NCBI RefSeq assembly: GCF_016097555.1
Contig: NC_054699.1
Span: 10,093,429-10,157,428 of the forward strand
DNA: 64,000 bases
Source of the DNA: Gigantopelta aegis
Lineage: Eukaryota > Mollusca > Gastropoda > Neomphalida > Peltospiridae
Direction: 5' to 3'
The position numbers and the translations under genes are program-made. The number at the start of each line of letters is the position of its first letter. Position 1 is the stretch's first letter. Below, in pieces: positions 19,401 through 64,000 of this stretch. Under the pieces are notes generated by a model, which was not told the DNA's origin, ran no database searches, and was given only the letters and a program-made list of their open reading frames with translations.

Positions 19401-22400
19401 CTGCACTAGCATGTGCTAGGGAGCACAAGCAGCCCGACCTACATTTTAACCAGCCCAGACACTCAAATTACAACTGATTTTTAGTTTCTATATGACCAAA
19501 ATCATAACCCAAAATGGCAGTAAACATTAATTTAGTAAATCACTCTAGTTTGTAGAATTGCAGGCTTTAAGTGGGACAAATAATATCATTCACAATTTGG
19601 CAAACTTGAGCAGCAAATATTTAATATACAATTATATATATATATGTAATGCAAGTTTTGGTTGGACAAAATAAAATAAAAAAAGGAATACAATTACAAA
19701 TGCTTGAAAAAAAGAAGTAATATGTACATATTGGTCGATTGGCATATTTATATTGGCCATCAACATAAACGGGTAAGATGTCCTGAATAAGTAATATGTA
19801 CATATTGGTCGATTGGCATATTTATATTGGGGATCAACATAAAAGGGCAAGATGTCCTGAATAACTATAATGATACAGAGTACAAAACTTATCAAAATTA
19901 TACTGGGTAAAAAACTTTTCAAAATGATCTGAGTGCGACTGCGAATAATTTTTTCATGCTCATATACCACTAGAGTTTCGAGCATGTCCATCCCGGGGCC
20001 TGTCTCTGGATAGCCAGGGACTTGCTCTGGGACAAAAAAAAATAATTAAGGGGACAATTTTAAAATTTACATCCAAAAGTGGGCCTTTAAAATTTTGATG
20101 CATATCTCTAATTAATAAAGAAAATTCTACTCATTAAATTTTGTCACTAGATTAGATCGGGAGGTCAAAAAGAAAATAGATAGATAGATAACTAGTTTAA
20201 CGTGTTCGTATACCACCAGGGCCCCAAACACGCCCATCCCGAGTCCGACCTCTGATAAGATCGGTGGCCTAACTTGGGATGGGGGGGGGGTTGAAAATGG
20301 ACAGAATTTTGAAATTAGCAATTAGTAAAAGAAATTAGTAGGATTAAAAAAAAAAAAAATTTACAAGCCAAAAATAAAATGAATCGACTGCTCGGCCGAA
20401 TATTTATATAATTTTGTGCATTTTAGAAGGACAGTCCAAAAATAAATAAGAGAAAGAAGAGAGGATTGGACTAGTTAATAATATTATAAAAAAAAGAAGT
20501 AATTTCGACATAAAATTTTGAACGGAGGTCTAAAAGTTTAAAGTCCGATCTATATGGTCCGGGCCAGTGGGGAGGGTAATGATGAGTTAATTATGAACAA
20601 GCATGGAACATTTTGAAAAGCACGTTTTAGATACAATTTTTTTTCCAAAATATTAAAGGTAGGGTCAACTCAAACAAGAGCCTTATGTGTTGGAAAGATG
20701 CATACCTGGACCACCAACACATACTGACACTTTAACAAATGAAAAACGCGTAATTTTAGAGTTAATAAAAAACCCATGATTATTCCTGCTAACTGGGGGC
20801 AGCCATTTTGTTTCGTTTTTGTGACGTCCGGTGGGATAGCTTGGGGCGAAGTGACGTCAGCTCCTGACCATCTCCTGTATGTACAGTGTAAACAAAAGCA
20901 GTAATTTTCGACAAGGCGCTTCTCTTTGATCAACCTGACTTGTAAAACAGCATAAATGACGTAATAATATAAATAAACTATTTAACTAAATATATTTCAA
21001 GTTGCATTAACGGAACAAAATCGGGTTATAGTATTTTTCTCTGTTTAATAACCCAAAGGAAAAATGTACACTATTAGGCCTATTGATATGCTACGTTGGA
21101 TCAAAAACGACAACCCACGATACCCAAGTGATAATTTTCCTTTCTTTGGGACTACGTAATTGGTCAGTTCTGTGGTTTTAGATGGAAAAGTCTACTTAAT
21201 GTTTTACAGAACTATTTACTGTAATAAACCATGTCCATTACAATTTTAGGGGCGACAGATAATATTCCACAATACCGGTATGTATTTTTGTGTCTAGACA
21301 GTGTCAATTAATTGGCTCGTCTGGTTACCAATCAAATACACACCTGCCAATCAGGAATCACAGGAAGAAGCTACTAACAGCATAGACAATTAACTAAGAA
21401 AACACTCCGTGTATCATTTCAGTACGTAGGTTAATGCATGGGCAAAACATTGTTACCCGGTAATTGTTTCGACTTGTTGTGTAGATTTTATTTTGTATTG
21501 AAAAATAATATATTATATAGTGCTGGATATACTTATTGCTGGCTTACTGGGATGTGTATTATTACAGAACATTGCAATGTATGACTATTTATCATCCTGC
21601 AAAAACCAGGTAGATTGTGTTTCTCTAGTTCTAAGGCTCATTCCTGACGTTACGCGTTAAGTATTACGTAACCACCAGCTCGCCAGAGGGCGTACTCACT
21701 GAGATGGTACAAAATGGCTGCGCCCGTTATATATAATAGCCGTCACATTTAACCGTTTTATTAATTAACTATACGATTATACGTGTTGATATTAAGCAAT
21801 AATGTGCATTAGGCCTATATATCGTTGAATATGCATACCAGGCCAAATGCCTTAATTATCCTCTCCTTCAAAGAGAGGTTACTAAATAATTTTTTAAATC
21901 ATGAGAAACTTCACTCATAAAGAGCTTTGTTTCTACAAATACAACACAATATTCTAATTAGCTTTTGTGGTGAATTAATAAGATTAAAGGGACATACCCT
22001 AGTTTTTAAACACTAAGGCATATTTTTGACAATTGTAGCCGTGTTTGATAACTGAAATCATACTTTACTTAGATTTTATGGTTTATATTATCAATTTCCG
22101 TACATTCGAAGTGTTTTTGGTCATCCTGGTGTTTTAATATCACAAAATGCATTTCTCACATTTTTAAAAACGTACGTGCGTCTGAGAAGTAACAGTTATG
22201 GAGTCAACACCGTTTTAAAGTCACAAACTCGTGTTTCACTCAATTGTAACTTTATCCAAATGTGCTACAGGTTTGTAGATTAACTAAACTTAGTGTTAAT
22301 GTTCACGGGTTGAAACTAGGGTCTGTCCCTTTAACTAAACTTAGTGTTAATGTTCACGGGTTGAAACTAGGGTCTGTCCCTTTAACTAAACTTAGTGTTA

Positions 22401-25400
22401 ATTTTCACGGGTTGAAACTAGGGTCTGTCCCTTTAAATGAACTATAGTCACCAAATTTAACCATAAATGACTAAAAATGTTGCTAATCAAACTTTAATAT
22501 TTATAAATGGCGCACAATAGTGTAATTAATGAAATATATTTGCCAAATTCGACTTTAGTTTGCATTTTGCTTTTGACAGTTTAAATCCTGGAAATGTGTT
22601 GTTATAAAACAACAAAATGTTAGTTTGTTTTGCTTAACGACACCACTAGAACACATAGAAGGAAGGAAGGAAATGTTCTATTTAACGATGCACTCAACAC
22701 ATTTTATTTACGGTTATATGGCGTTGGAGATATGGTTAAGGACCACTCAGATATTGAGGGCGAAAACACGCTGTCATGGGCTACTCTTTTCGATTAACAG
22801 CAAGGGATCTTTTATATGCACCATCCCATAGACAGGATAGCACATACCACGGCCTTTGATGTACCAGTCGTGATGCATTGGCTGGAGCGAGAAATAGCCC
22901 AATGGGCCCACTGACAGGGATTGATCCCAAACCGACCGCGCATCACGCAAGCACTTTAATACTGGGCTACGTCTCGCCCCTTAGAGCACATAGATTTATT
23001 AATCATTGGCTATTGGATGTCAAACATTCTGTAATTTTTGACATATAATTTAGAGGAAACCTGCTGCATTTTTCCATTAGTAACGAGGGATCTTTTATAT
23101 ACACCATCCTACACAGGACAGCACATACCCCGGCCTTTGATACACCAATCATAGTGCACTGGCTGGAACGAGAAATAGCCCAATGGGTCTACCGACGGGG
23201 ATCGATCTCAGACAGACCACACATCAGGCAAACCTTTCACCTTGGGTTACGTCCCACCCCTACATTTGTCAAATTCAACTTTAATTAGCATTTTGTGAAT
23301 AGCAGCTAAACCCCTGGAACTGTACTGTTATTAAAGGGACAGACCCTAGTTTCAACCTGTGAAAATTAACACTAAGTTTAGTTAAAGGGACAGACCCTAG
23401 TTTCAACCTGTGAAAATTAACACTAAGTTTAATTAATCTACAAACCTGTAACACATTTGGATAAAGTTTCAATTGAGTGAAACATTAGTCTGTGACTTTA
23501 AAATGGTGAAATACCCTCTCAAAATAGACTAAAACTCGACTCCATAGCTGTCACTTCTCAGACGCACGTGCATTTTAAAAGATATGAGAAATGCATTTTG
23601 TAATATTAAAAATACCTGGATGACCAAAAACACTTCGAATGTACAGAAATGGATAATCTAAACAATAAAATTTAAGTAAAGTATGATTTGTGTTATGATA
23701 AATGGCTCAAATAGTCAAAAATATGCCTTAGTGTTTAAAAACTAGGGAATGTCCCTTTAACCAACAAACCTGCGGATGAGACTGGCGAGAACAGTCAGAG
23801 CCTGGCGCTGCAGGAACGGGAGTCGAGCCAACAACCAGATCCTGGACGTGGACGGCCTTGACAGCTGGAAAGAGAAAAGTCGGTTTTAAAGAGTAAAGTC
23901 AGTTTTAAAGAGTAAAGTTGAGAGTAAAGTCGATTTTAAAGAGAAAAGTCGGTTTTAAAGAGTAAAGTCAGTTTTAAAGAGTAAAGTTGGGAGTAAAGAG
24001 TAAAGTTGGGAGTAAAGTCAGTTTTAAAGAATAAAGTTGGTTTTAAAGAGTAAAGTCAGTTTTAAAGAGCAAAGTCAGTTTTAAAGGGCAAAGTCGGAGT
24101 AAAGTCAGTTTTAAAGAGTAAAGTCAGTTTTAAAGGGCAAAGTCAGAGTAAAGTCAGTTTTAAAGAGTAAAGTCGGAGTTAAGTCAGTTTTAAAGAGTTA
24201 AGTCAGTTTTAAAGAGTTAAGTCAGTTGTAAGAAGTGAAGTCAGTTTTACAGAGTAAAGTTGGTTTTATGGAGTAAAGTTAGTTTTCAAGAGTAAAGTAA
24301 GTTTTAAAGAGTTAAGTTGTTTTAAGTAGTAAAGCCGGTTTTAAAGTGTTACATTAGTCAGTATTTACAAAATAAAGTTGGTTTTAAAGAGTAAAGTTAG
24401 TTTTAAAGAGTAAAGTTGGTTTTAAAGAGTAAAGTTGGTTTTAAAGAGTAAAGTTAGTTTTAAAGAGTTAAGTCGGTTATAAAGAATAAACTTGATTTGA
24501 AGTAAAGTAAACTCAGTTTTAAAAGAGTAAAGTTGGGTTTAAAGAGTAAACTTAGTTTTAAAGAGTAAAGTAAACCACTAGAACACATTGATTAATTAAT
24601 CATCGGCCATTAGATGGTAATTTTAGAGAGGAAACCCACTATATTTGTCCATTAGGAGCAAGGGATCTTTTATATGCACCATACCATAGACATGATAGCA
24701 CATACCATGACCTTTAATGTACCAGTCGTGGTGCACTGGCTGGAACGAGAAATAACCCAATGGGTCCACGGACAGGGATCAATCCTAAACCGGCCATGCA
24801 TCAGGTGATAACTTTACCACTAGGTTATGTCCCACCCTCCGTGAACCCTGTACATGGCTCAAAGCTGACAAGAAGAGGCAACTGACACTCAAAATAAAAA
24901 CATATGTTTGACAATCAATTTCACCTTTATCAAGCAGCTTTTGCTTTCCGCCTTATATCACTATAAAACTATTCAGAAAAACCCCCATTATTCATTCAAA
25001 TTGACTCTTTGTTTTTCTTTTTTTTAAATATTAGACATATATTAGAGTTTATATGAGTAGAAGTGGTCTAGAATGTTTTAATTAAACACAGTAAAAAAAA
25101 AAAAAAACCCCACCAAGAAAATGATTAGTTTATATTTACATAAAATAAGAGTATTAGTCTAGAACGTCTTTTCAATTTCTATCATTTGCTTCAAGCTGAA
25201 AATAACAGAAGCAGAGACTGCTTTCTCATTTCACAAAATGAATTTCAAATCTTGCAGCACCTGCCATATTTAATGTTACTGGCTTAAACCATATACACTG
25301 CCAGGGCCACTTTTGTTCAGGTTACCAATATATTCATAACACAAACTGTATGGCGCTTGTTGCTATAGTAACAGGCTTCCAATTAACAAGAGGTTTTTCA

Positions 25401-31400: not shown

Positions 31401-34400
31401 ACTGCAGATCTTTGTTTTTATACATGTTGAAGGAAGGAAATGTTCTATTTAACGATGCACTCAACACATTTTGTGTACAGTTATATGGCGTTGGACATAT
31501 GGTTAAGGACCACACAGAGATTGAGAGAGGAAACCTGCTGTTGCCATTTCATGGACTACTCTTTTCGATTAACAGCAAGGGATCTTTTATATGCACCATC
31601 CCACAGACAGGACAACACGTACCACGGCCTTTGATATACCAGTCGTAGTGCACTGGCTGGAGTGAGAAATAGCCCAATGAGCCCACCGACGGGGATCGAT
31701 CCCAGACCAACCGCGCATCAAGCAAACGCTTTATCACTGGGCTACCTGTACCTGTATGTCCCAACCCTTTGTCACTGGGCTACATGTACCTGTATGTCCC
31801 AACCCTTTGTCACTGGGCTACATGTACCTGTATGTCCCAACCCTTTGTCACTGGGCTACATGTACCTGTATGTCCCAACCCTTTGTCACTGGGCTACCTG
31901 TACCTGTATGTCCCAACCCTTTGTCACTGGGCTACTGTACCTGTATGTCCCAACCCTTTGTCACTGGGCTACCTGTACCTGTATGTCCCAACCCTTTGTC
32001 ACTGGGCTACCTGTACCTGTATGTCCCAACCCTTTGTCACTGGGCTACCTGTACCTGTATGTCCCAACCCTTTGTCACTGGGCTACCTGTACCTGTATGT
32101 CCCAACCCTTTGTCACTGGGCTACCTGTACCTGTATGTCCCAACCCTTTGTCACTGGGCTACCTGTACCTGTATGTCCCAACCCTTTGTCACTGGGCTAC
32201 CTGTACCTGTATGTCCCAACCCTTTGTCACTGGGCTACCTGTACCTGTATGTCCCAACCCTTTGTCACTGGGCTACCTGTACCTGTATGTCCCAACCCTT
32301 TGTCACTGGGCTACCTGTACCTGTATGTCCCAACCCTTTGTCACTGGGCTACCTGTACCTGTATGTCCCAACCCTTTGTCACTGGGCTACCTGTACCTGT
32401 ATGTCCCAACCCTTTGTCACTGGGCTACCTGTACCTGTATGTCCCAACCCTTTGTCACTGGGCTACCTGTACCTGTATGTCCCAACCCTTTGTCACTGGG
32501 CTACCTGTACCTGTATGTCCCAACCCTTTGTCACTGGGCTACCTGTACCTGTATGTCCCAACCCTTTGTCACTGGGCTACCTGTACCTGTATGTCCCAAC
32601 CCTTTGTCACTGGGCTACCTGTACCTGTATGTCCCAACCCTTTGTCACTGGGCTACCTGTACCTGTATGTCCCAACCCTTTGTCACTGGGCTACCTGTAC
32701 CTGTATGTCCCAACCCTTTGTCACTGGGCTACCTGTACCTGTATGTCCCAACCCTTTGTCACTGGGCTACCTGTACCTGTATGTCCCAACCCTTTGTCAC
32801 TGGGCTACCTGTACCTGTATGTCCCAACCCTTTGTCACTGGGCTACCTGTACCTGTATGTCCCAACCCTTTGTCACTGGGCTACCTGTACCTGTATGTCC
32901 CAACCCTTTGTCACTGGGCTACCTGTACCTGTATGTCCCAACCCTTTGTCACTGGGCTACCTGTACCTGTATGTCCCAACCCTTTGTCACTGGGCTACCT
33001 GTACCTGTATGTCCCAACCCTTTGTCACTGGGCTACGTGTACCTGTATGTCCCAACCCTTTGTCACTGGGCTACGTGTACCTGTATGTCCCAACCCTTTG
33101 TCACTGGGCTACGTGTACCTGTATGTCCCAACCCTTTGTCACTGGGCTACCTGTACCTGTATGTCCCAACCCTTTGTCACTGGGCTACCTGTACCTGTAT
33201 GTCCCAACCCTTTGTCACTGGGCTACGTGTACCTGTATGTCCCAACCCTTTATCACTGGGCTACGTGTACCTGTATGTCCCAACCCTTTATCACTGGGCT
33301 ACGTGTACCTGTATGTCCCAACCCTTTATCACTGGGCTACGTGTACCTGTATGTCCCAACCCTTTATCACTGGGCTACGTGTACCTGTATGTCCCAACCC
33401 TTTATCACTGGGCTACGTGTACCTGTATGTCCCAACCCTTTATCACTGGGCTACGTGTACCTGTATGTCCCAACCCTTTATCACTGGGCTACGTGTACCT
33501 GTATGTCCCAACCCTTTATCACTGGGCTACCTGTACCTGTATGTCCCAACCCTTTATCACTGGGCTACGTGTACCTGTATGTCCCAACCCTTTATCACTG
33601 GGCTACGTGTACCTGTATGTCCCAACCCTTTATCACTGGGCTACCTGTACCTGTATGTCCCAACCCTTTATCACTGGGCTACGTGTACCTGTATCTCCCA
33701 ACCCGTTATCACTGGGCTACGTGTACCTGATGTCCCAACCCTTTATCACTGGGCTACCTGTACCTGTATGTCCCAACCCTTTATCACTGGGCTACCTGTA
33801 CCTGTATGTCCCAACCCTTTATCACTGGGCTACCTGTAACTGTATGTCCCAACCCTTTTATACATGTTGAGGTCATGTTGTTAATTAATAACCCATATTG
33901 CCAGCGTTTAATATACAGCAATCATGACCAGTTTAACATATTATTATTATTAATATCATGTTGTTAATTAATAACCCATATTGCCAGCGTTTAATACACA
34001 GCAATCATGACCAGTTTAACATATTATTATTATTAATATCATGTTGTTAATTAATAACCCATATTGCCAGCGTTTAATACACAGCAATCATGACCAGTTT
34101 AACATATTATTATTATTAATATCATGTTGTTAATTAATAACCCATATTGCCAGCGTTTAATACACAGCAATCATGACCAGTTTAATATATTATTATTACT
34201 AATATCTGCTGTGTATATTTACTCGCATGTCACTTTATTTCTTATGTTGTTAATAATAATTATAATTACATTATACAGAGGATGTACCAGTTTTCGTTAT
34301 CGAAAACAAAAATCGCATGACTGGCATAATTTGGCCATCGTGAGTATGTTGGTTAATGGACAGTAGACTGCTTAAAATACTTGCAAACTGGTCTTTCTAA

Positions 34401-35616: not shown

Positions 35617-38600
35617 ATATATGTATATACCCTTAAAAATAGACTAAGACTAAAACCATTACTTCTCAGACGTACATGAATTTTTAAAAATATGAAAAAT
35701 GCATTTTGTGGTATTAGAAACAACAAAATGATCAGAAACACTTCGAATGTATGGAAATGGATAATCTAAACAATAAAATATAAGTAATGTTTGATTTCAG
35801 TGATCATAAATGGCTCTAACAGTGAAAAATATGCTGTAGTGTTTAAAAACTAGGATCTGTCACTTTAAAAAAACATATTGGTTCATATCAAAGTGTTACG
35901 TCCCACTAGAATGTGAACTGGACGTAACACTTCGACATCATACAATTGGTGCACTACGACCGTATCAAAACGTTAATCAAACAAGTTCAGTTCTATAAAT
36001 TAAAATCGATTATGGGTAATAAATAGAGTATTAAACTTGCAACCATTTCGTATAATGATTACGTCCATCTTGAATTATTTTTATTGTCCCTCGCTAAAGC
36101 TCGAGACAAGTGAGAATTATTTCACCCAGGACATAAACATGATACGAAATGGAAGCTTGTCGCACGCACATGAAAAAATTCAGATTTGGATGGATCTGAA
36201 TGTACAATGTAAAGCTTGTTTTGTTTCACGACACCACTAGAGCACAGATATATTAATCATTGGCTACTGCATATCAAACATTTATATTAATCATTGGCTA
36301 CTACATATCAAACATTTATATTAATCATTGGCTACTGCATGTCAAACATTTATATTAATCATTGGCTACTGCATGTCAAACATTTATATTAATCATTGGC
36401 TACTGCATGTCAAACATTTATATTAATCATTGGCTACTGCATGTCAAACATTTATATTAATCATTGGCTACTGCATATCAAACATTTGGTAAATTTTGAC
36501 ATACAAACTTAGAGAGGAAGCCTGCAACATTTTTCCATTAGCAGCAAGGGATCTTTCATATGCACCATCCCACAGACAGGATAGCACATACCACAGCCTT
36601 TGATATACTGTCGTGGTGCACTGGCTGGAGTGAGAAATAGCCCCATCGACGGGGATCGATCCCAAACCAACTGCGCATCAAGTGAGTGCTTTACCACAGG
36701 GCTACGCCCCGCCCCTCCTGAAATTGATAATTACAATTAATTACGACCAATCTAACTCACCATCACGTTCTTATTGACTGCCAAACACCGACACACTATG
36801 TGTAGAACACTTTCCACTGGTACCTTCACCACTGTAGGGAACGACTCACTGTAAAGAGGATTCCAAATTAACACAAGAATAGACACTCAAAACATAGCAC
36901 ACAAACTAAAATCTTAGTAGTATTTGTTTAAAAAACACCCACAACACGAAGATTTAATCTAGGTCTCTTGAGGTGTTAGGTTTACTCCATTCAATTTCTA
37001 TGTCTCTGAGGTGTTAGGTTTACTCCATTCAATTTCTATGTCTCTGAGGTGTTAGGTTTACTCCATTCAATTTCTATATCTCTGAGGTGTTAGGTTTACT
37101 CCATTCAATTTCTATGTCTCTGAGGTGTTAGGTTTACTCCATTCAATTTCTATGTCTCTGAGGTGTTAGGTTTACTCCATTCAATTTCTATGTCTCTGAG
37201 GTGTTAGGTTTACTCCATTCAATTTCTATGTCTGAGGTTCCATTCATTTTCTATGGGGAAACATCTGTGGGGAAAATGGTTTTCCACCATCAACTGACTT
37301 GATGTCACCTCCACTCTAATCTATCGACATTTATTTTAATATTTTGATAAAAAAAATTTATATATATTAGTGAAAATCAATATTTAACACTTATTTTATT
37401 TAAAAAATAACTTAAAATATAAAATTTTAGATTAATCTAGTTCTGCTAAAAATAATAAAATACATAATTATTTTTAAAAATGTAAAAAAATATATTTAAA
37501 ATTTGTTTAACATGCATTGAAACAAACTATAATTAAATGAAATTTCACTGATTGAGGACTAGAACTTTATTTTTTTTAAAACAATATTTATTCAAAGAAA
37601 TGAAGTGTATCGGCAATCAGGCGATAAGCCTAATGTATATAAACACCTCTAGAATGTTCTGAGAAACGAAGCTAAAAAGTGAGAACTTACAACTGAGTTA
37701 GGCGCAATTTAAGCTGACACCATCGAAGCATGACAATAACAAAATTAACTTCACCTTAAGAGGGCCTCTAAGCACAGTGCAAGTGTTTGAAAATGTCCCG
37801 TCAAGTATTTGCCTCTCGCGGGTTCTGAATCAGGACAGGACATCTGTGGTAGTCTGTCAGCTGGGTGATATTCAGAACCTGTACCATAGAAAGAAAGAAA
37901 GAAATGTTTTATTTAACGACGCACTCAACACATTTTATTTACGGTTATATTGTGTCAGACATATGGTTAATGACCACACAGATATGGAGAGAGAAAACCC
38001 GCTGTCGCCACTTCAAGGGCTACTCTTTTCGATTAGCAGCACGGAATGTTTTATATGCACCATCCCACAGACAGGATAGTACATACCACAGCCATTGTCA
38101 CACCAGTTGTGGAGCACTTGCTGGAACGAAAAATAGCCCAATGGGTTCACCGACGGAGATCAATCCTAGACTCACTGTGCATCAAGCAAACACTTTACCA
38201 CTGGACTACATCCGCCCCTAGGAAACAAAACACGATTAAAGTCTTTAACTAGTGCTGGGGATCGGTTGGAAAATCACCATCGATCATCGGTTGTAGTTTA
38301 GACAGTAAAATACCACGAGAATAATTTCACCTTTCTGACAATAACCTCATCTGTTTGACAATAACCTCATCTGTTTGACAATAGCCTCACATGTCCAATG
38401 ATAGCCTCACCTGACAATAACCTCATCTGTTTGACAATAACCTCATCTGTTTGACAATAACCTCATCTGTTTGACAATAACCTCATCTGTTTGACAATAA
38501 CCTCATCTGTTTGACAATAACCTCATCTGTTTGACAATAACCTCATCTGTTTGACAATAGCCTCACATGTCCAATGATAGCCTCACCTGACAATAACCTC

Positions 38601-41600
38601 ATCTGTTTGACAATAACCTCATCTGTTTGACAATAACCTCATCTGTTTGACAATAGCCTCACATGTCCAATGATAGCCTCACCTGACAATAACCTCATCT
38701 GTTTGACAATAACCTCATCTGTTTGACAATAACCTCATCTGTTTGACAATAGCCTCACATGTCCAATGATAGCCTCACCTGACAATAACCTCATCTGTTT
38801 GACAATAACCTCATCTGTTTGACAAGAGCCTCACATGTCCAATGATAGCCTCACCTGACAATAACCTCATCTGTTTGACAATAGCCTCACATGTCCAATG
38901 ATAGCCTCACCTGACAATAACCTCATCTGTTTGACAATAACTTCATCTGTTTGACAATGACCTCATCTGTTTGACAATAGCCTCACATGTCCAATGATAG
39001 CTTCACCTGACAATAACCTCATCTGTTTGACAATAACTTCATCTGTTTGACAATAACCTCATCTGTTTGACAATAGCCTCACATGTCCAATGATAGCCTC
39101 ACCTGACAATAACCTCATCTGTTTGACAATAACCTCATCTGTTTGACAATAGCCTCACATGTCCAATGATAGCCTCACCTGACAATAACCTCATCTGTTT
39201 GACAATAACCTCATCTGTTTGACAATAGCCTCACATGTCCAATGATAGCCTCACCTGACAATAACCTCATCTGTTTGACAATAACTTCATCTGTTTGACA
39301 ATAACCTCATCTGTTTGACAATAGCCTCATCTGTTTGACAATAACCTCATCTGTTTGACAATAACCTCATCTGTTTGACAATAGCCTCACATGTCCAATG
39401 ATAGCTTCACCTGACAATAACCTCATCTGTTTGACAATAACCTCATCTGTTTGACAATAGCCTCATCTGTTTGACAATAGCCTCACATGTCCAAAGATAG
39501 CCTCACCCTCCAAGAATAACCTCATTTATCTGACACTAGTGACAATAATTTCACCGATCCAACAATAACCTCACCTATTTGAAAATAACCTCACCTTTGA
39601 ACATTAGGTCCACTGTCTGGTTCAGACCATTGAGTTTGCTGTCTGAGAATAACCTCACTTGTCTGATAATTACTGTGACTGTTTGGTATTAACCTCACCT
39701 GTATCTAAACCTTTCTACAGTAGGTCTAGTGTCTGGTTCAAACAACACAGGAGTTTGCTGTCTGATAATAACCTCACCCGTCTGATATTAACCTCACCTG
39801 TCTCTAAACCCTTGTACAGCAAGTCTATTGCCTGGCTCAGACCACTCAGGAGTTTGCTGTCTGATAACAACCTCATCTGTATGATAATAAGCTCATCTGT
39901 CTGATATTAACCTCACCTGTCTCGAAACATTTGTATAGCAGGGTTCAAACCACTCATCTAGTGCTTGGTTCAGGCCACTCAAGAGTTTGCTGTCCGACAA
40001 TAACCTCATATGTCTGATAATAACTCCACCTGTCTAAAAATATCCTCAAGTATCTGACAATAACCTCACCTCTAAACCTTCGTACAGCAGGTCTAGTGCC
40101 TGATTCAGACCAGTCAACACTTTGCTGTCTGACAATAACGTCACGTATCTGATATTAACCTCACCAGTCCGATAACATCACACATCTGACATTAACCTCA
40201 CCTGTCCGATAATGTCACTTATCTGACATTGACCTGACCTGTCTGATAACATCACATATCTGATATTAACCTGACCTGTCTGATAATGTTACTTATCCGA
40301 CATTTACCTCACCTGTCCGATAACATCACATATCAGACATTAACCTCACCTGTCCGATAACATTACATATCAGACATTAACCTCACCTGTCTCTAAGCCT
40401 TCGTACAGTAGGTCTAATGCCAGGTTGAGACCGGACAACACTTTGCTGTCTGACAATAACGTCACATATCTGATATTAACCTCACCTGTCCGATAACATT
40501 ACATATCAGACATTAACCTCACCTGTCTCTAAACCTTCGTACAGTAGGTCTAGTGCCTGGTTGAGACCGGACAACACTTTGCTGCACTGTTCGGTCCAAC
40601 TCTCTGTGAATTTCACTCCCTGGCTGCCTCCGCCACCACATCTCGGTAGAAGGGCAAAACACGAGATGACACTCTGAAACAAGGAATGAATGAATGATGT
40701 TTAACGACACCAGAGCACAAACTATGGTAAGAAAGGAAATGTTTTATTTAACGACGCACTCAACACATTTTATTTATGGTTATATGGCGTCGGACATATG
40801 GTTAAGGATCACACAGATATTGAGAGAGGAAATCTGCTGTCGCCACTACTCTTTTCGATTAGCAGCAAGGGATCTTTTATATGCACCATCCCACAGACAG
40901 GATAGTACATACCACAGCCTTTGTTACATCAGTTGTGGAGCACTGGCTGGAACAAGAAATAGCCCAATGGGTCCACCGACGGGGATTGATCCTAAACCGA
41001 CCGCGCATCAAGCGAGTGCTCTACCACTGGGCTATATCCTGCCCTGAACTATGGGAAATGCAAACAGTAAGTGATGAACCACATCAATATAAAAATTCAA
41101 CACTTAAATTAAAACACAGTGTAAAGAACTGTAATTTTTTTTTAACAAATATCACAGATAGGTAAAATTAAAATTTAAAAACTAAAATTCAGTATGACGA
41201 CTCTGAAACAAGGAAACCATTATAACAGTTACCGTCATCGAACTCCGATTCTCTATCTTTCTATGTGTCTCAACAAAGTGTTGAAATAACCATGTTAGAC
41301 ACAATTAGATATATTTTAAAAGTTTAAAGTTTGTTTTGTTTAACAACACCACTAGAGCACATTGATATATTAATCATCGGCTACTGGATGTCAAACATTT
41401 GGTAATTTTGACATATAGTCTTAGAAAGGAAACCCGCTACATTTTTCCATTAGTAGCAAGGGATCTTTTATATACACCATCCCACAGACAGGACAATATA
41501 TACCACAGCCTTTGAAATGCCAGTTGTGGTGCCCTAGCTGGAATGTGAAATACCTCCATGGGCCCACAGATGGGTATATTTTAAAACATACAACAGGCCT

Positions 41601-50600: not shown

Positions 50601-53600
50601 CTTCTAGAGAGAAAAGAACAAAACATAATAGGTTTATACTGCTTACAAATTTAATACATACATGTATGTATACTTCGATCAAATTAATGCTTGTATTCCA
50701 TAACAGGTTCTCTACAAAGATTTAAAATGTTAGATATCCCTAAGTCAGTTCACCTAATTTTTATCAAGGTTTATACCGGCTTCGGTGGTGTCATGGTTAA
50801 GCCATTGGACATAAGGCTGGTAGGTACTGGGTACCGTCTCCCACCCAGAGCAAGTTTTAATGACTCAATTGGTAGGTGTAAGACCACTACACCCTCTTCT
50901 CTCTCACTAACCACTAACAACTAACCCACTGTCCTGGACAGACAGCCCAGATAGCCGAGTGTGTGTGTCCAGGACAGCGTGCTTGAACCTCAATTGGATA
51001 TAAGCACGGAAATAAGTTGAAATAAAATCAAGGTTTATAAATGATCTACCCCAAATGTCAGTATAGATATGTATGCAGATGACACCACATGACACACATC
51101 TGTCCGTAATAGAGGCTGCATTACATTACAAACAAACTTAGATGCTGTAAAATCTTGGTGCATCAATAATAATATGTCTATAGACCCATCTAAAACTACA
51201 TGTATTTTAATTGGTACAGAGCATAAATTGGGCCAAACTGTTCAGTTGCAACAAAAAAAACAAAGAAAACTTTTTGTTTTGTTTAACGACACCAATTGAG
51301 CACATTGATTTATTAATCATCAGCAATTCGATGTCAAACATTTGGTAATTTTGACATATAGTCTTAAGAGAGAAAACCCTCTACATTTTTTCATAAGTAG
51401 CAAGGGATCTTTTATATATGTACCATCCCATGGCCTTTTATATACCAGTTGTGGTACACTGGCTGGAACGAGAACTAGCCTAATGAGGATCAATTCCAAA
51501 CGGACTGCATATCAAGCGAGTGCTTTATCAGTGGGCTACATCCCACCTCAGTTGCAACTAAGTATCAATAATAACACTATAGCACCTGCTCATTGCCACT
51601 GAGTGTCAATAATAACGCTATATCACCTGCTCATTGCCACTGAGTGTCAATAATAACGCTATATCACCTGCTCATTGCCACTGAGTGTCAATAATAACGC
51701 TATATCACCTGCTCATTGCCACTGAGTGTCAATAATAACGCTATATCACCTGCTCATTGCCACTGAGTGTCAATAATAACGCTATATCACCTGCTCATTG
51801 CCACTGAGTGTCAATAATAACGCTATATCACCTGCTCATTGCCACTGAGTGTCAATAATAACGCTATATCACCTGCTCATTGCCACTGAGTGTCAATAAT
51901 AACGCTATATCACCTGCTCATTGCCACTGAGTGTCAACAATAACGCTATATCACCTGCTCATTGCCACTGAGTGTCAACAATAACGCTATATCACCTGCT
52001 CATTGCCACTGAGTGTAATAACGCTATATCACCTGCTCATTGCCACTGAGTGTCAATAATAACGCTATATCACCTGCTCATTGCCACTGAGTGTCAATAA
52101 TAACGCTATATCACCTGCTCATTGCCACTGAGTGTCAACAATAACGCTATATCACCTGCTCATTGCCACTGAGTGTCAATAATAACGCTATATCACCTGC
52201 TCATTGCCACTGAGTGTCAATAATAACGCTATATCACCTGCTCATTGCCACTGAGTGTCAATAATAACGCTATATCACCTGCTCATTGCGAGTGTCAATA
52301 ATAACGCTATATCACCTCACCTCATTGCCACCGAGTGTCAATAATAACGCTATATCACCTGCTCATTGAGTGTCAATAATAACGCTATATCACCTGCTCA
52401 TTGCCACCGAGTGTCAATAATAACGCTATATCACCTGCTCATTGCCAGAGTGTCAATAATAACGCTATATCACCTGCTCATTGCCACCGAGTGTCAATAA
52501 TAACGCTATATCACCTGCTCATTGCGAGTGTCAATAATAACGCTATATCACCTGCTCATTGCCACCGAGTGTCAATAATAACGCTATATCACCTGCTCAT
52601 TGCCACTGAGTGTCAATAATAACGCTATATCACCTGCTCATTGCCACCGAGTGTCAATAATAACGCTATATCACCTGCTCATTGCCACTGAGTGTCAATA
52701 ATAACGCTATATCACCTGCTCATTGCCACGAGTGTCAATAATAACGCTATATCACCTGCTCATTGCGAGTGTCAATAATAACGCTATATCACCTGCTCAT
52801 TGCCACCGAGTGTCAATAATAACGCTATATCACCTGCTCATTGCCACCGAGTGTCAATAATAACGCTATATCACCTGCTCATTGCCACTGAGTGTCAATA
52901 ATAACGCTATATCACCTGCTCATTGCCACCGAGTGTCAATAATAACGCTATATCACCTGCTCATTGAGTGTCAATAATAACGCTATATCACCTGCTCATT
53001 GCCACCGAGTGTCAATAATAACGCTATATCACCTGCTCATTGCCACCGAGTGTCAATAATAACGCTATATCACCTGCTCATTGCCACTGAGTGTCAACAA
53101 TAACGCTATATCACCTGCTCATTGCCACTGAGTGTCAATAATAACGCTATATCACCTGCTCATTGCCACTGAGTGTCAATAATAACGCTATATCACCTGC
53201 TCATTGCCACCGAGTGTCAATAATAACGCTATATCACCTGCTCATTGCCACCGAGTGTCAATAATAACGCTATATCACCTGCTCATTGCCACCGAGTGTC
53301 AATAATAACGCTATATCACCTGCTCATTGCCACCGAGTGTCAATAATAACGCTATATCACCTGCTCATTGCCACCGAGTGTCAATAATAACGCTATATCA
53401 CCTGCTCATTGCCACCGAGTGTCAATAATAACGCTATATCACCTGCTCATTGCCACCGAGTGTCAATAATAACGCTATATCACCTGCTCATTGCCACCGA
53501 GTGTCAATAATAACGCTATATCACCTGCTCATTGCCACCGAGTGTCAATAATAACGCTATATCACCTGCTCATTGCCACCGAGTGTCAATAATAACGCTA

Positions 53601-56600
53601 TATCACCTGCTCATTGCCACCGAGTGTCAATAATAACGCTATATCACCTGCTCATTGCCACCATAATGCTATATCACCTGCTCATTGCCACCGAGTGTCA
53701 ATAATAACGCTATATCACCTGCTCATTGCCACCGAGTGTCAATAATAACGCTATATCACCTGCTCATTGCCACCGAGTGTCAATAATAACGCTATATCAC
53801 CTGCTCATTGCGAGTGTCAATAATAACGCTATATCACCTGCTCATTGCCACCGAGTGTCAATAATAACGCTATATCACCTGCTCATTGCCACCGAGTGTC
53901 AATAATAACGCTATATCACCTGCTCATTGCCACCGAGTGTCAATAATAACGCTATATCACCTGCTCATTGCCACCGAGTGTCATAATAACGCTATATCAC
54001 CTGCTCATTGCCACCGAGTGTCAATAATAACGCTATATCACCTGCTCATTGCCACCGAGTGTCAATAATAACGCTATATCACCTGCTCATTGCCACCGAG
54101 TGTCAATAATAACGCTATATCACCTGCTCATTGCCACCGAGTGTCAATAATAACGCTATATCACCTGCTCATTGCCACCGAGTGTCAATAATAACGCTAT
54201 ATCACCTGCTCATTGCCACCGAGTGTCAATAATAACGCTATATCACCTGCTCATTGCCACCGAGTGTCAATAATAACGCTATATCACCTGCTCATTGCCA
54301 CCGAGTGTCAATAATAACGCTATAGCACCTGCTCATTGCCACCGAGTGTCAATAATAACGCTATATCACCTGCTCATTGCCACCGAGTGTCAATAATAAC
54401 GCTATAGCACCTGCTCATTGCCACTAAGTGTCAATAATAACGCTATAGCACCTGCTCATTGCCACTAAGTGTCAATAATAACGCTATAGCACCTGCTCAT
54501 TGCCACTAAGTACCAATAATAACGCTATAGCACCTGCTCATTGCCACTAAGTACCAATAATAACGCTATAGCACCTGCTCATTGCCACTAAGTACCAATA
54601 ATAACGCTATATCACCTGCTCATTGCCAAAAACATTTAGGACTCTGTGTTGATCAAAATCTTAGCTGGAACACACAAGTTGATCACATGTGTTCACAAGT
54701 CTCATCTAAAATGGCTATGTTGAGACGAATTAGCAAATTTCTCATCCCAGAATCAAAATCTTATGTTTTGCAGTAAAATTGTTAATACATCTCATATTTC
54801 TATCTATAATAGGTCATTTATTGTAATTTTTGGTACCGGATGTTTGAATGCCATAACAGGTCATGATAATACTGACACATTTTTATGGTTTTTATTCCAG
54901 GTATTTTTATAACTAAATATGTAAGACTGGAAAATCACCTGAGTATAATTTTAATTAGTACTTTAGTGATATCAAGTGGACATTGCATTACCGTAAACAC
55001 TACTAATGACATAGTGCTAGGGTCTGGATTCGAACTCCAGACCATCTAGACTGTACCCGAGCACTGTAACCACTCAGACACGTAGTGGATCAATAAGTGA
55101 GACTGCATTTTAATACTTATATATCTCATAGGGTGTGTTTTGAGGGAATGAACCGAGCGTCTACGGAACAAAATGAACCTTTAGTCCTGTAATGCCTCAT
55201 TGTGTCTTCTGTGCTATATTTCTGCCAAAAGCACGAACAAAAGCAACGTGTGGAGGAAATTTTACACAGAATAGTCAAAATGTCTAATTTTTCAAAGGCA
55301 AAACGTACTTTTACCGGATTACAAAATATAAACATTATGTTGCTTTTATAGTACAAAATGTTTAAAAAGATATTGTATATAACTAAAGTCTGAACCAAAT
55401 TGTTAACAATAATGATAAATTACTCTCCTACCTTTAATTGCCATTAGATTTTCTCCACTTTTTGTCCAAACATAAATCTTGAAAAAACCATTACAGTGGC
55501 ATAGATTCCACGTAGGAGACTGTAATGTTCAATGTCACCAATATCAACTTCGCTGAGATTGCATAGGGCAAAATACATGCAATTTTTCACCGTCTGACAT
55601 TTTGCTTTTTCGTGCAATACTCTTCAAGAGGGGTGGAAGCTTCCTGAGTATGTGACGTAATTAATATGACGTCATGATGAGTGGTAGTACCTTAGCGCAT
55701 GTCATGATGTTGTTAGATTACGTCATATCGATCCACCCCTCTTGAAGAATATTCCATAAACTAGGAAAATGGTAGACGGCAGAAAACTGCATGCATTTTA
55801 CCGTATATGCAATCTCAGCGATGTCGATGACATCGTTACAGTCTTGTATGTGGAATCTGTGTCACTGTAATGTTTTTTTCACATTTTGTGTCTGGACAAA
55901 ATTTTGGGGAAATCTAACTGTAATTAAAGACAGGAGAGTAACTTACCATAGTTGCTAACAATTTGGTTCAGACTTTAACCCTAAGGGGCCGTTCAAATAT
56001 TACGTAATGCTATTTTGGTCAAAATTAGACACCCACCCACCCCCTTGTAACGCCAGACCATACACCCCCCAAAATATTACAAGCAGGAACAAGAACAGGA
56101 CATGGTTTAACATGTACATTCAGAGCAAGCTGTTGTAGGACACGCCTATCATGGGCACGGGTGCCGTCCTCGGCCGGCTCCCCTGTCCATGACAAGAAAG
56201 GTGGGGGAGGTAGCAGGAAGGAGCAAGGGAGCGCCAGCCGCCCAGTTGGGCCGGTAACAGGTGGAGGATATGGTGGTGCTATGGAATTTGGAATTTGCAT
56301 GATGGCCTAAAATATGCCAAGGGAATGAGTGCGCAATTTGGATGAAGGAAATTTGGTGCATTTTTGAACGGTTGTTCCAAAAAATGAAAGAAGTGAGCTA
56401 TGTATAGGTTTGGAATTAGTGAATCGAGAGTAGCTTGTTAATTAAGACAAAGCAACGTGGCAATGTTTATTTATACCCATGTGTACTACAATGACGTCAT
56501 TAAAGTGACGTATTGCTGTACGATGAAACCCCCCCCCCCCCCACCCCCGTGGGTTTTCACATGCGCCATTTTAATTAAAATGTCTGGTGTATTAAAGCAT

Positions 56601-58044: not shown

Positions 58045-59081
58045 CTGGATGGACGTAGTAAGTGTGGTTCTTACGAATCATAGTCACTTCGTACCCAAGT
58101 CATATCATACCATCCAGTTCGTACCATGCTGCCTGGTCATTTTGTACCCTAGTCATTTCATACCTTGGTCATTTCGTACCTTTGCAAAAAGTCATTTCGT
58201 ACCCAAGTCATTTCGTACCCTAGTAATTTCGTACCATTGTGAAAAGTCATTTCGTACCCCAGTCATTTCGTACCTAGTCATTTCATTCCAGTATATAGAA
58301 AATGAATTGACTATAGCATAAAAGGAGTGGGTTTTGTTTTAAAACTTTATTTTGACAGTTTGAAAACCAGAACACGTTATTGTGCAGCATATCGTTATTG
58401 ATACCCATAATACCTGTCAACTGTTATTTTCATTTCACCTGACAAGAACCGTATATGATATTTACTACTAACTGCCAACTTCGATTTTGTGTGAAATGGC
58501 TCCAGATAATTAGTCCAAAACAATATAATGAACCAACAAAATATTATTTATTTATTAGGTCTTCTTTTCAAACTTGCTTATTTGCATCTTATTTGTTTAA
58601 GAAATAAACAATAACAACCATTAAAACATTAACTACCTTATTGATTGCCAAATTAGCCAATTGCTAATGTTTATACAAAGTGGCAATAATTTTTAGTCTT
58701 TTGCTGATAAAATATCCCTTAAATTAACCACAAATTTGTAATTTAATATTATTTTGTAAAAGACATTACTGGGGTGATTGTTATAAATTGTTATATCATG
58801 GTACGATATGACTTTCAGTTATGGTACGAAATAACCAAGGTACGAAATTACTTTTTGCAATGGTACGAAAAGACCAAGGTACGAAATTACTTTTTGCAAT
58901 GGTATGAAATGACCTGGGTACGAAACGACCAAATTAGGTACAAAATGACCTGGGTACGAAACGACCAAATTAGGTACAAAATGACCTGGGTACGAAACGA
59001 CCAAATTAGGTACGAAATGACTATGGTACGAAATGACCATGGTACGAAGTGACTAGCAACCGTTCTTACTACATCCGGATC
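58045..59081. mobile_element. MITE with subterminal GTCATTTCGTACC arrays
   Basis: The ends GGATGGACGTAGTAAG and the complement of CTTACTACATCCGGATC are inverted. Inside each end the 13-15 bp unit GTCATTTCGTACC is repeated many times, in opposite directions (58083-58285 and 58798-59050). Confidence 0.82.
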
Positions 59082-62598: not shown

Positions 62599-63878
62599 TT
62601 ATAGAGAATTTGCAACATGGATGAGCAAATAGCAGACACACAGACTATTGTGAGCAAAATGGAAGACATTATTGGCAGTGATGCAACACAGATGTCACAA
62701 GAACCATCCACTCAGCTTCTCCTGCAAAATATTGATGATGTTATTTCCAGCAGTTCCATTTTACCCAAATCATTGGAGAGTGAAACAACTGTAAAGGAAA
62801 AAACTTTGGAATCGCTCTCTGCAGCTTCAGGTGTAGAATCTATTGGTGTAATCAACACAGATACATGTATTTCAACTAATGTTGATCAAGCTTTAAGTCG
62901 CAAACGGCTTCTAGAAGAAGAAACCTGTAAATCATCACCAAAAGTTCAAAAACATTTCACAGATGACAAAACTGACGAGACTGTGATACATTCATCTGAA
63001 AAATCAGCAGGAGAGAAAAACCAAGTACATAATATTATGCATATTGGTGAAAATCTTGATTCTAACAAATCATTGGTAGAACAAAAAACAATACAGCGTA
63101 GTGAAAATACCGCTCAGTCTGTGCATGTAATTACAGAGAAACGGTCAACAATGTTTCTGCCAAGATCACTAAGTGGTAAGCTTCCAAATGTTAGTGAGAA
63201 TACTGATGGTAAATTCAAGGAACAAAGCAAGTTGGAGGAGAAGGTTTTGCACAGTGTAGGAATGGGGGAAACTGTTTGGCATAGTACAGAAATGAAGGGA
63301 AATGTTTTGCACAGTACAGAAATGAAGGGAAATGTACACAGTACAGAAATGGAGGAAAATGTACACAGTACAGAAATGGGTGGAAATGCTTTACACAGTA
63401 CAGAAATGGGTGGAAATGTTGTACACAGTACAGAAATGGGTGGAAATGCTTTACACAGTACAGAAATGGAGGGAAATGTTTTGCACAGTACAGAAATGAA
63501 GGGAAATGTTTTGCACAGTACAGAAATGGAGGAAAATGTACACAGTACAGAAATGGGTGGAATTGTTGTACACAGTACAGAAATAGGTGGAAATGCTTTA
63601 CACAGTACAGAAATGGAGGGAAATGTTGTGCACAGAACAGAAATGGGTAGATATGTTTTACACACTACAGAAAGGGGGCAAGATGTTTGTGAAACGATGG
63701 AGGAAATCATCAGCAATGAGAAAGAAAAGAATCTATATACATGTGAAGAGGTAGGAAAGAAGGAAAAGCTACTGACTCTGGAAATGCCGGGATCCGTTTC
63801 TCCTGTGGTTACCACGGTGATACCAGACGATTATGAAGAATCACAGCGGAAAGATATCACTGCAGAATCGTGGGATAG
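62599..63878 (+). CDS. unrecognised gene, first coding exon (420 codons), 3' end outside the window
   Basis: The acceptor TGATTATTGCAG precedes 18 nt of 5' UTR and the ATG at 62617 (context TTGCAACATGG). The frame stays open for 420 codons to the strong donor GATAG|GTATGT; the frame beyond it stops at once. Residues 1-200 are Ser/Thr/Glu-rich with a basic stretch SRKRLLEEE near residue 94. Residues 210-356 are about fifteen 9-10 residue repeats (VLHSTEMKGN type). Residues about 385-420 (EMPGSVSPVVTTVIPDDYEE) are likely the start of a conserved part that continues downstream. I do not recognise the family. An upstream non-coding exon must exist. It is divergent from PELP1. Confidence 0.8.
63244..63684 (+). 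repeat. in-frame 27/30-bp coding minisatellite
   Basis: About fifteen units around TTGCACAGTACAGAAATGGA. Unit lengths differ only by 3 nt, so the reading frame is kept throughout, unlike the non-coding arrays in this window. Confidence 0.92.
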
Positions 63879-64000
63879 GTATGTTAATGAATAATTTTAA
63901 TGACATTCATGTAACAGGTGTGATCTACATTTGTAGCTTCAAAACTTAGTAGAATCCGTAACCATATAAGGGAATTCAATGTATTCAATTTTGATATAAC
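63879..64000 (+). other. start of the following intron
   Basis: Begins GTATGTTAATGAATAA. No exon is visible before the window ends. Confidence 0.7.

Follow-up and report, generated by a model that had tools for sequence, protein, structure and literature searches.

An ordered minisatellite apparently derived from the boundary of exon 7 and its intron in a PELP1 gene of Gigantopelta aegis

Introduction

Turri, Cuin and Porter are said to have described, in 1995, a minisatellite with multiple splice donors in the human gene IFI6 (6-16, G1P3). Two downstream units of the IFI6 repeat reportedly act as splice donors, so that three mRNAs result (PMC4526556). The 'mirages' of amphioxus are described as minisatellite-like tandem repeats lying across exon–intron boundaries of Adh3 and of the globin genes BflGb6 and BflGb9 (PMC3087553). 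In these mirages splice signals occur in many units and the length is unstable, and splicing is reported to be regular (PMC3087553). Related accounts concern a tandem duplication that crosses an exon–intron border (PMC4974935), tandem repeats at exon–intron boundaries that can form new introns (PMC2812944), and exon duplications together with intronic minisatellites in earthworm metallothionein (PMC12783039). Here we describe a comparable structure in a stretch of 64,000 nucleotides of Gigantopelta aegis DNA (contig NC_054699.1, positions 10,093,429 to 10,157,428; hereafter the window), in the intron that follows exon 7 of a PELP1/RIX1 gene on the minus strand. The name exon 7, used here for positions 40673-40523, comes from an earlier sequence-only reading and is kept purely as a label.

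Two of the features that characterize mirages are found in the PELP1 intron, where tandem repeats span the exon–intron boundary and AG/GT splice signals are present in many, although not all, of the units. In our assessment, with a probability of roughly 0.78, the locus is an exon–intron-boundary minisatellite of this type that is mostly neutral, having most likely arisen as a side effect of splice-site duplication that the gene tolerates.

Results

Six partial copies of exon 7 share one junction

The last 62 bases of exon 7 (nucleotides 90–151) recur six times, whole or in part, in the exon's own downstream intron. These copies, c1 to c6, begin on the minus strand at the higher of the two coordinates given for each in Table 1. 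Their local alignment scores (109, 91, 32, 59, 64 and 37 for c1 to c6) all exceed the maximum of 27 obtained from 300 introns resampled with a first-order Markov chain. At least six exon 7 pieces with attached donors had been proposed in the sequence-only reading, and six are indeed present. They were described there as the 3' half of the exon; the copied portion is its 3' end, but amounts to 62 of 151 nt (41%).

All six copies share a single junction, which lies at a CAG common to exon and intron. Specifically, exon base 90 is the start of the alignment in five of the six; the alignment of c6 begins later, and its CAGCAAA start was located by pattern. The copies are preceded by TCAGA, or by TCGGA in c3. 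The common start in five alignments, taken with the same preceding intron unit, indicates that the junction was most simply made by a single duplication and inherited by later copies. The nearest copy, c1, is part of a 136-bp duplication that comprises the exon end together with the exon's own downstream intron, with 95% matches and zero indels. The donor 136 nt downstream is accordingly 98% alike to the real donor over the 60 nt spanning the junction and is preceded by the last 62 exon bases at 95% identity, so that the two sites differ mainly in that the copy lacks an acceptor and exon bases 1 to 89.

The order of the copies also follows their resemblance to the exon. Codon identity to exon 7 falls from 0.95 at the nearest copy to 0.75 at the farthest (values in Table 1, with gaps and the c3 insert excluded; Spearman -0.81 against distance, P 0.05, n=6). 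The maximum-likelihood tree is a ladder that matches physical order, with a near-zero exon branch and bootstraps of 98/85/53/62 in 100 replicates and 99/88/59/65 in 1,000. Sequence distance likewise tracks physical distance, both with the exon included (Mantel exact P 0.006, all 5,040 orders) and for the six copies alone (exact P 0.0014, 720 orders). In the codon identities, the tree, the Mantel tests, and the amino-acid comparisons, edge test and control-unit count given below, gaps were set by hand and c3 was used without its 14-nt insert; the c3 row as aligned is therefore not found verbatim in the window, and the gaps placed by MAFFT in c6 differ from those set by hand. These sequence comparisons support derivation of the copies from exon 7 in ladder order.

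A 20-bp unit straddles the exon end

The spacers between the copies, as well as a 1.15-kb array beyond them, are built from a 20-bp unit that spans the boundary between exon 7 and its intron. The junction 20-mer (AGACAGGTGAGGTTAATGTC) takes 6 bases from the end of the exon and 14 from the start of the intron, and shares 17 of its 20 positions with the commonest array unit. Elsewhere in the window, that array unit finds no counterpart better than 14/20 on the minus strand or 15/20 on the plus strand. Between 40528 and 38336, the junction 20-mer is recognizable at 84 places with at least 13/20 matches (units picked at least 12 bases apart, some overlapping). At a threshold of 15/20 there are 72 start positions, whereas 50 resampled regions averaged 0.02. 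In the outer array the form CAGATGAGG, in which the GT is lost, accounts for 34 of 63 pieces, and the donor 9-mer CAGGTGAGG occurs nine times in a shifted register.

With respect to direction, the C-terminal LYEGLET of exon 7 aligns with LYEGAET of human PELP1. The exon end is thus probably older coding sequence, which favours derivation of the array from the exon.

What the sequence-only reading observed in this region is confirmed, and its interpretation is supported in part. Alignment of the array units to the exon and construction of a tree, both of which it had suggested, trace the units to the junction 20-mer and the copies to exon 7. Some array units still carry the donor sequence, as had been stated, and the ladder, the unit match and the probably older coding end together support its view that a minisatellite was born from the exon–intron junction. 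The array is slightly shorter than the 38330-39530 originally assigned to it (Table 1). Decay with distance holds for the six exon copies but is weak over all 84 junction units (Spearman -0.19, P 0.08), and monotone decay across the units was rejected.

Taken together, these features suggest a history of four steps. The 20 bp across the junction, 6 of them exonic and 14 intronic, would first have been duplicated in tandem. A longer tandem duplication then appears to have fused an intron unit ending in CAG to an internal CAG of the exon, so that the intron gained the exon's final 62 bases and the junction common to all six copies was made. Later copies would have been born beside the exon, probably by unequal exchange, so that older ones lie farther away and are more decayed, as their order indicates. 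Lastly, the outer 20-bp units may have expanded into a higher-order array. On this account the order of the copies records the growth of a boundary minisatellite.

Table 1. Coordinates of the PELP1 boundary features in the window (a slash marks an exon–intron boundary)
Feature	Position	Strand	Details
PELP1 exon 7	40523..40673	-	151 nt; 3' end GAG ACA G/GTGAGG; phase 1; in-frame join to exon 8
Authentic 5' splice site	40514..40525	-	CAG/GTGAGGTTA; U1 duplex -11.6 kcal/mol
Copy c1	40387..40448	-	95% identical; open; 63-nt cassette if TCAG/ACAG is an acceptor
37-bp units between c1 and c2	40135..40391	-	6.9 copies; Tandem Repeats Finder period 37, 85% matches; each about two junction units
Copy c2	40070..40127	-	91%; ACAG lost; donor GAG/GTGAGG
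Copy c3	39917..39992	-	78% (insert excluded); 14-nt insert resembling its own upstream stretch
Copy c4	39798..39859	-	78%; open
Copy c5	39699..39760	-	80%; contains TAG stop
Copy c6	39595..39641	-	75% (gaps excluded); two deletions; donor AAG/GTGAGG
20-bp minisatellite	38336..39485	-	About 60 units; 76- and 96-bp periods also scored; nine CAGGTGAGG
Next exon (exon 8)	37755..37878	-	Joins exon 7 in frame

Decoy donors equal the real donor in predicted U1 pairing, and those tested lead to one stop

Within the 64 kb, the minus strand has 18 instances of CAGGTGAGG, all of them inside 38413-40525, and the plus strand has none. These sites comprise the real donor, eight near decoys and nine in the 20-bp array, and the predicted pairing with U1 is the same at all 18 (-11.6 kcal/mol), making the decoys equal to the real donor. 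That energy is reached by only 22 of the 4,407 minus-strand GT sites, four of which lie outside exon 7 and its intron. The sequence-only reading had counted about fifteen decoys identical at CAG/GTGAG; we find 17 decoys with the full 9-mer, and among the donors attached to the copies CAG is kept at just four of six (the exceptions are c2 and c6). Local RNA folding offers no discrimination, with donor accessibility at or below 0.03 at all 18 identical sites, including the real one.

Reading through the true donor would give the residues ETGEVNV followed by a stop. Farther downstream, 28 donors with a U1 energy of -7 kcal/mol or lower were tested, and every one leads to this same stop at codon 56. 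On sequence grounds the decoys therefore cannot rescue or buffer exon 7, contrary to the earlier suggestion that they might buffer its splicing, and productive use of them is unlikely. Lengthening of exon 7, also envisaged, could only yield a truncated product. Occasional decoy use would thus be expected to give a truncated, probably degraded message. In practice the spliceosome most likely keeps the first donor, because only the exon of that donor has a real acceptor. With 18 identical 9-mers following one exon, the real donor included, the locus would provide a natural test of spliceosome choice among identical 5' splice sites.

Identity of the gene and surroundings of exon 7

The assignment to PELP1 is based on the neighbouring exons, which were recognized with Pfam, and on matches in the PDB. 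One exon piece scores above the cut-off for the Pfam RIX1 family (expect value E 2.4e-6) and another below it (E 0.01). The Pfam scan returned no family for exons 7 and 8. In the PDB these two exons hit human PELP1 at E 1.2e-8, and the joined peptides of four exons hit the same protein at E 2.9e-18. Among four PELP1 exons searched for further copies at E 0.01 or better, only exon 7 has any; the boundaries of two of these exons were placed by eye. A tRNA scan with the bacterial code found zero genes.

On the minus strand at 41194-41215, about 530 bp upstream of the real exon 7 acceptor, there is a 22-nt near copy (95%) of that acceptor and the first exon bases. It is perhaps a target-site duplication from an old insertion.

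Other arrays in the window

Tandem repeats are also found elsewhere in the window. One of them, a 38-bp array with about 56 units at 31725-33858, starts inside the head of an element and includes part of that head in its unit; we take the element to be of a type resembling short interspersed nuclear elements (SINEs). A 41-bp array of about 76 units (51561-54628), containing 75 CACCTG/CAGGTG, begins shortly after another presumably SINE-like head, and the flanking open frames resemble pieces of what we take to be one reverse transcriptase. An open frame of 429 aa on the plus strand at 62605-63894 contains a 30-bp repeat that is read in frame (HSTEMEGNV-like) and has no Pfam family above the cut-off. 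Facing arrays at 58082-58284 and 58800-59053, about 0.5 kb apart, have the reverse-complement units CATTTCGTAC and GTACGAAATG, and a similar inverted pair of 51-bp arrays occurs at 22280-22448 and 23330-23436.

Discussion

Several observations weigh against a mostly neutral minisatellite that grew by births beside the exon. The edges of the copies (CAGCAAA and AGGTGAGGTTA) vary at 0 of 18 alignment columns, in comparison to 28 of 49 in the body (Fisher P 9e-6, with edges that were partly defined after viewing the alignment). In a control repeat unit preceding each copy, 9 of 22 columns vary, a rate at which invariant runs of 9 and 7 columns have P values of 0.009 and 0.025, respectively. The core GGTGAGGTTA is intact in six of six attached donors but in only 6 of 18 unattached units (P 0.007), and donor mismatches number 0/60 versus 22/180. 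The unattached units here are the junction-list entries from 40491 to 39560 that do not follow an exon piece, with stretches matching fewer than 13/20 excluded. In addition, support for the ladder is weak at its outer nodes (bootstraps 59 and 65), exon 7 differs from c3 and c4 by four amino-acid changes each where random placement gives 8.3 and 7.9 (P 0.002 and 0.006), and a ladder could also be built by gene conversion that weakens with distance.

The last of these possibilities is the alternative that survives best, although we regard it as unlikely. Here the ladder would reflect not the sequence in which the copies were born but conversion by the exon that depends on distance, an explanation that is compatible with a mirage and differs in history alone. 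It fits the observation that the nearest copies are the most exon-like, and it would keep the edges alike as well; indeed, edge conservation could come either from selection on splice edges or from repair by the exon. Birth beside the exon, however, simply explains both the ladder and the 136-bp duplicate, whose lack of indels and inclusion of the exon's own downstream intron are the pattern of a fresh tandem duplication, and private indels have been retained in the older copies. Birth beside the exon is the simpler account, and distance-fading conversion a possible one.

More doubtful is the idea that the copies function as decoy exons or poison exons. In this view U1 on the repeated donors would compete with the real site, competition being an effect that the sequence-only reading also considered, and intron retention or truncated messages would tune PELP1 output. 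The 17 decoys do pair with U1 as well as the real donor, the 28 tested donors lead to a stop, and the preservation of attached donors and copy edges while bodies drift would suit exons that need their edges and not their frame. Moreover, decoy exons with clustered splice sites are reported to promote intron retention (PMC8706089). Against this, no pyrimidine-rich acceptor precedes any of the six copies by a crude count, in which their pyrimidine percentiles among AGs of the strand are 0.14-0.47, compared with 0.98 and 0.95 at two real acceptors (the 0.95 for exon 8 being scored one base off, at 37877 instead of 37878). Copy c3 has TCGG in place of the TCAG of the other copies, and the seven conserved bases CAGCAAA exceed the needs of acceptor selection. 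The edges could equally be kept alike by conversion, either between repeat units or from the exon, which is itself constrained, and amphioxus mirages reportedly leave splicing intact (PMC3087553). Somewhat less probable again is a scheme in which the exon serves as a conveyor that sheds copies of its donor end, the splice edges being selected as the bodies drift and the decoys tuning PELP1 through non-productive splicing or intron retention.

We consider it very improbable that c1 and c4, and perhaps c6, serve as cassette exons, through which PELP1 would gain a repeat of one helix 21 codons long (16 codons for c6). With TCAG/ACAG as the acceptor, these copies would supply open pieces of 63, 63 and 48 nt in phase 1-1, but the acceptors are weak by the same crude count, and c2, c3 (frameshift) and c5 (stop) are broken and could not be in-frame exons even with a better one. 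As a set, then, the copies do not have the open, in-frame and constrained character of a functional tandem exon duplication. Amino-acid changes between exon 7 and c1, c2, c5 or c6 are not significantly below random placement, and none of the six pairs tested among the 15 possible between copies is significant (P 0.10-0.73); the c3-c4 pair, run in both directions where the remaining pairs were run in one, behaves like random placement (P 0.10-0.13). Coding constraint on the copies was thus rejected as a candidate, as the c3 and c4 signals against exon 7 may need no more than constraint along the exon's own lineage. Finally, the least probable proposal is that the array forms a CAGGTG E-box cluster acting as an enhancer, for although 38336-40530 holds 21 of the 123 CAGGTG/CACCTG sites in the window, 75 of the 100 sites listed outside it fall in the 51.5-54.6 kb array, so that the count follows repeat number and the cluster is not distinctive.

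Relative to known systems, the boundary minisatellite that we favour most closely invites comparison with the amphioxus mirages. In BflGb9 the 3' boundary of exon 2 is reported to be duplicated, just as the 3' boundary of exon 7 is here (PMC3087553). The PELP1 locus differs in having two nested units, of 20 bp and approximately 100-136 bp, as well as 84 places that match its junction 20-mer (at 13/20 or better), and in forming a ladder where homogenisation within clusters is reported for amphioxus (PMC3087553). If the mollusc host is correct, mirages would not be confined to amphioxus. Like IFI6, PELP1 contains a minisatellite that would supply several splice donors within one transcript, its donors being predicted from sequence; the repeat donors of IFI6 are reported to be used (PMC4526556), whereas the 28 tested in PELP1 share an early stop. 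In contrast to the border-crossing duplication (PMC4974935), the PELP1 copies sit inside an existing intron, and no new intron is shown. The likeness to decoy exons consists in extra splice sites within an intron (PMC8706089), but the PELP1 copies are without an acceptor-like tract by the crude count. Overall, boundary repeats of this kind are rare but already described, and the PELP1 case is a compound and well-ordered example.
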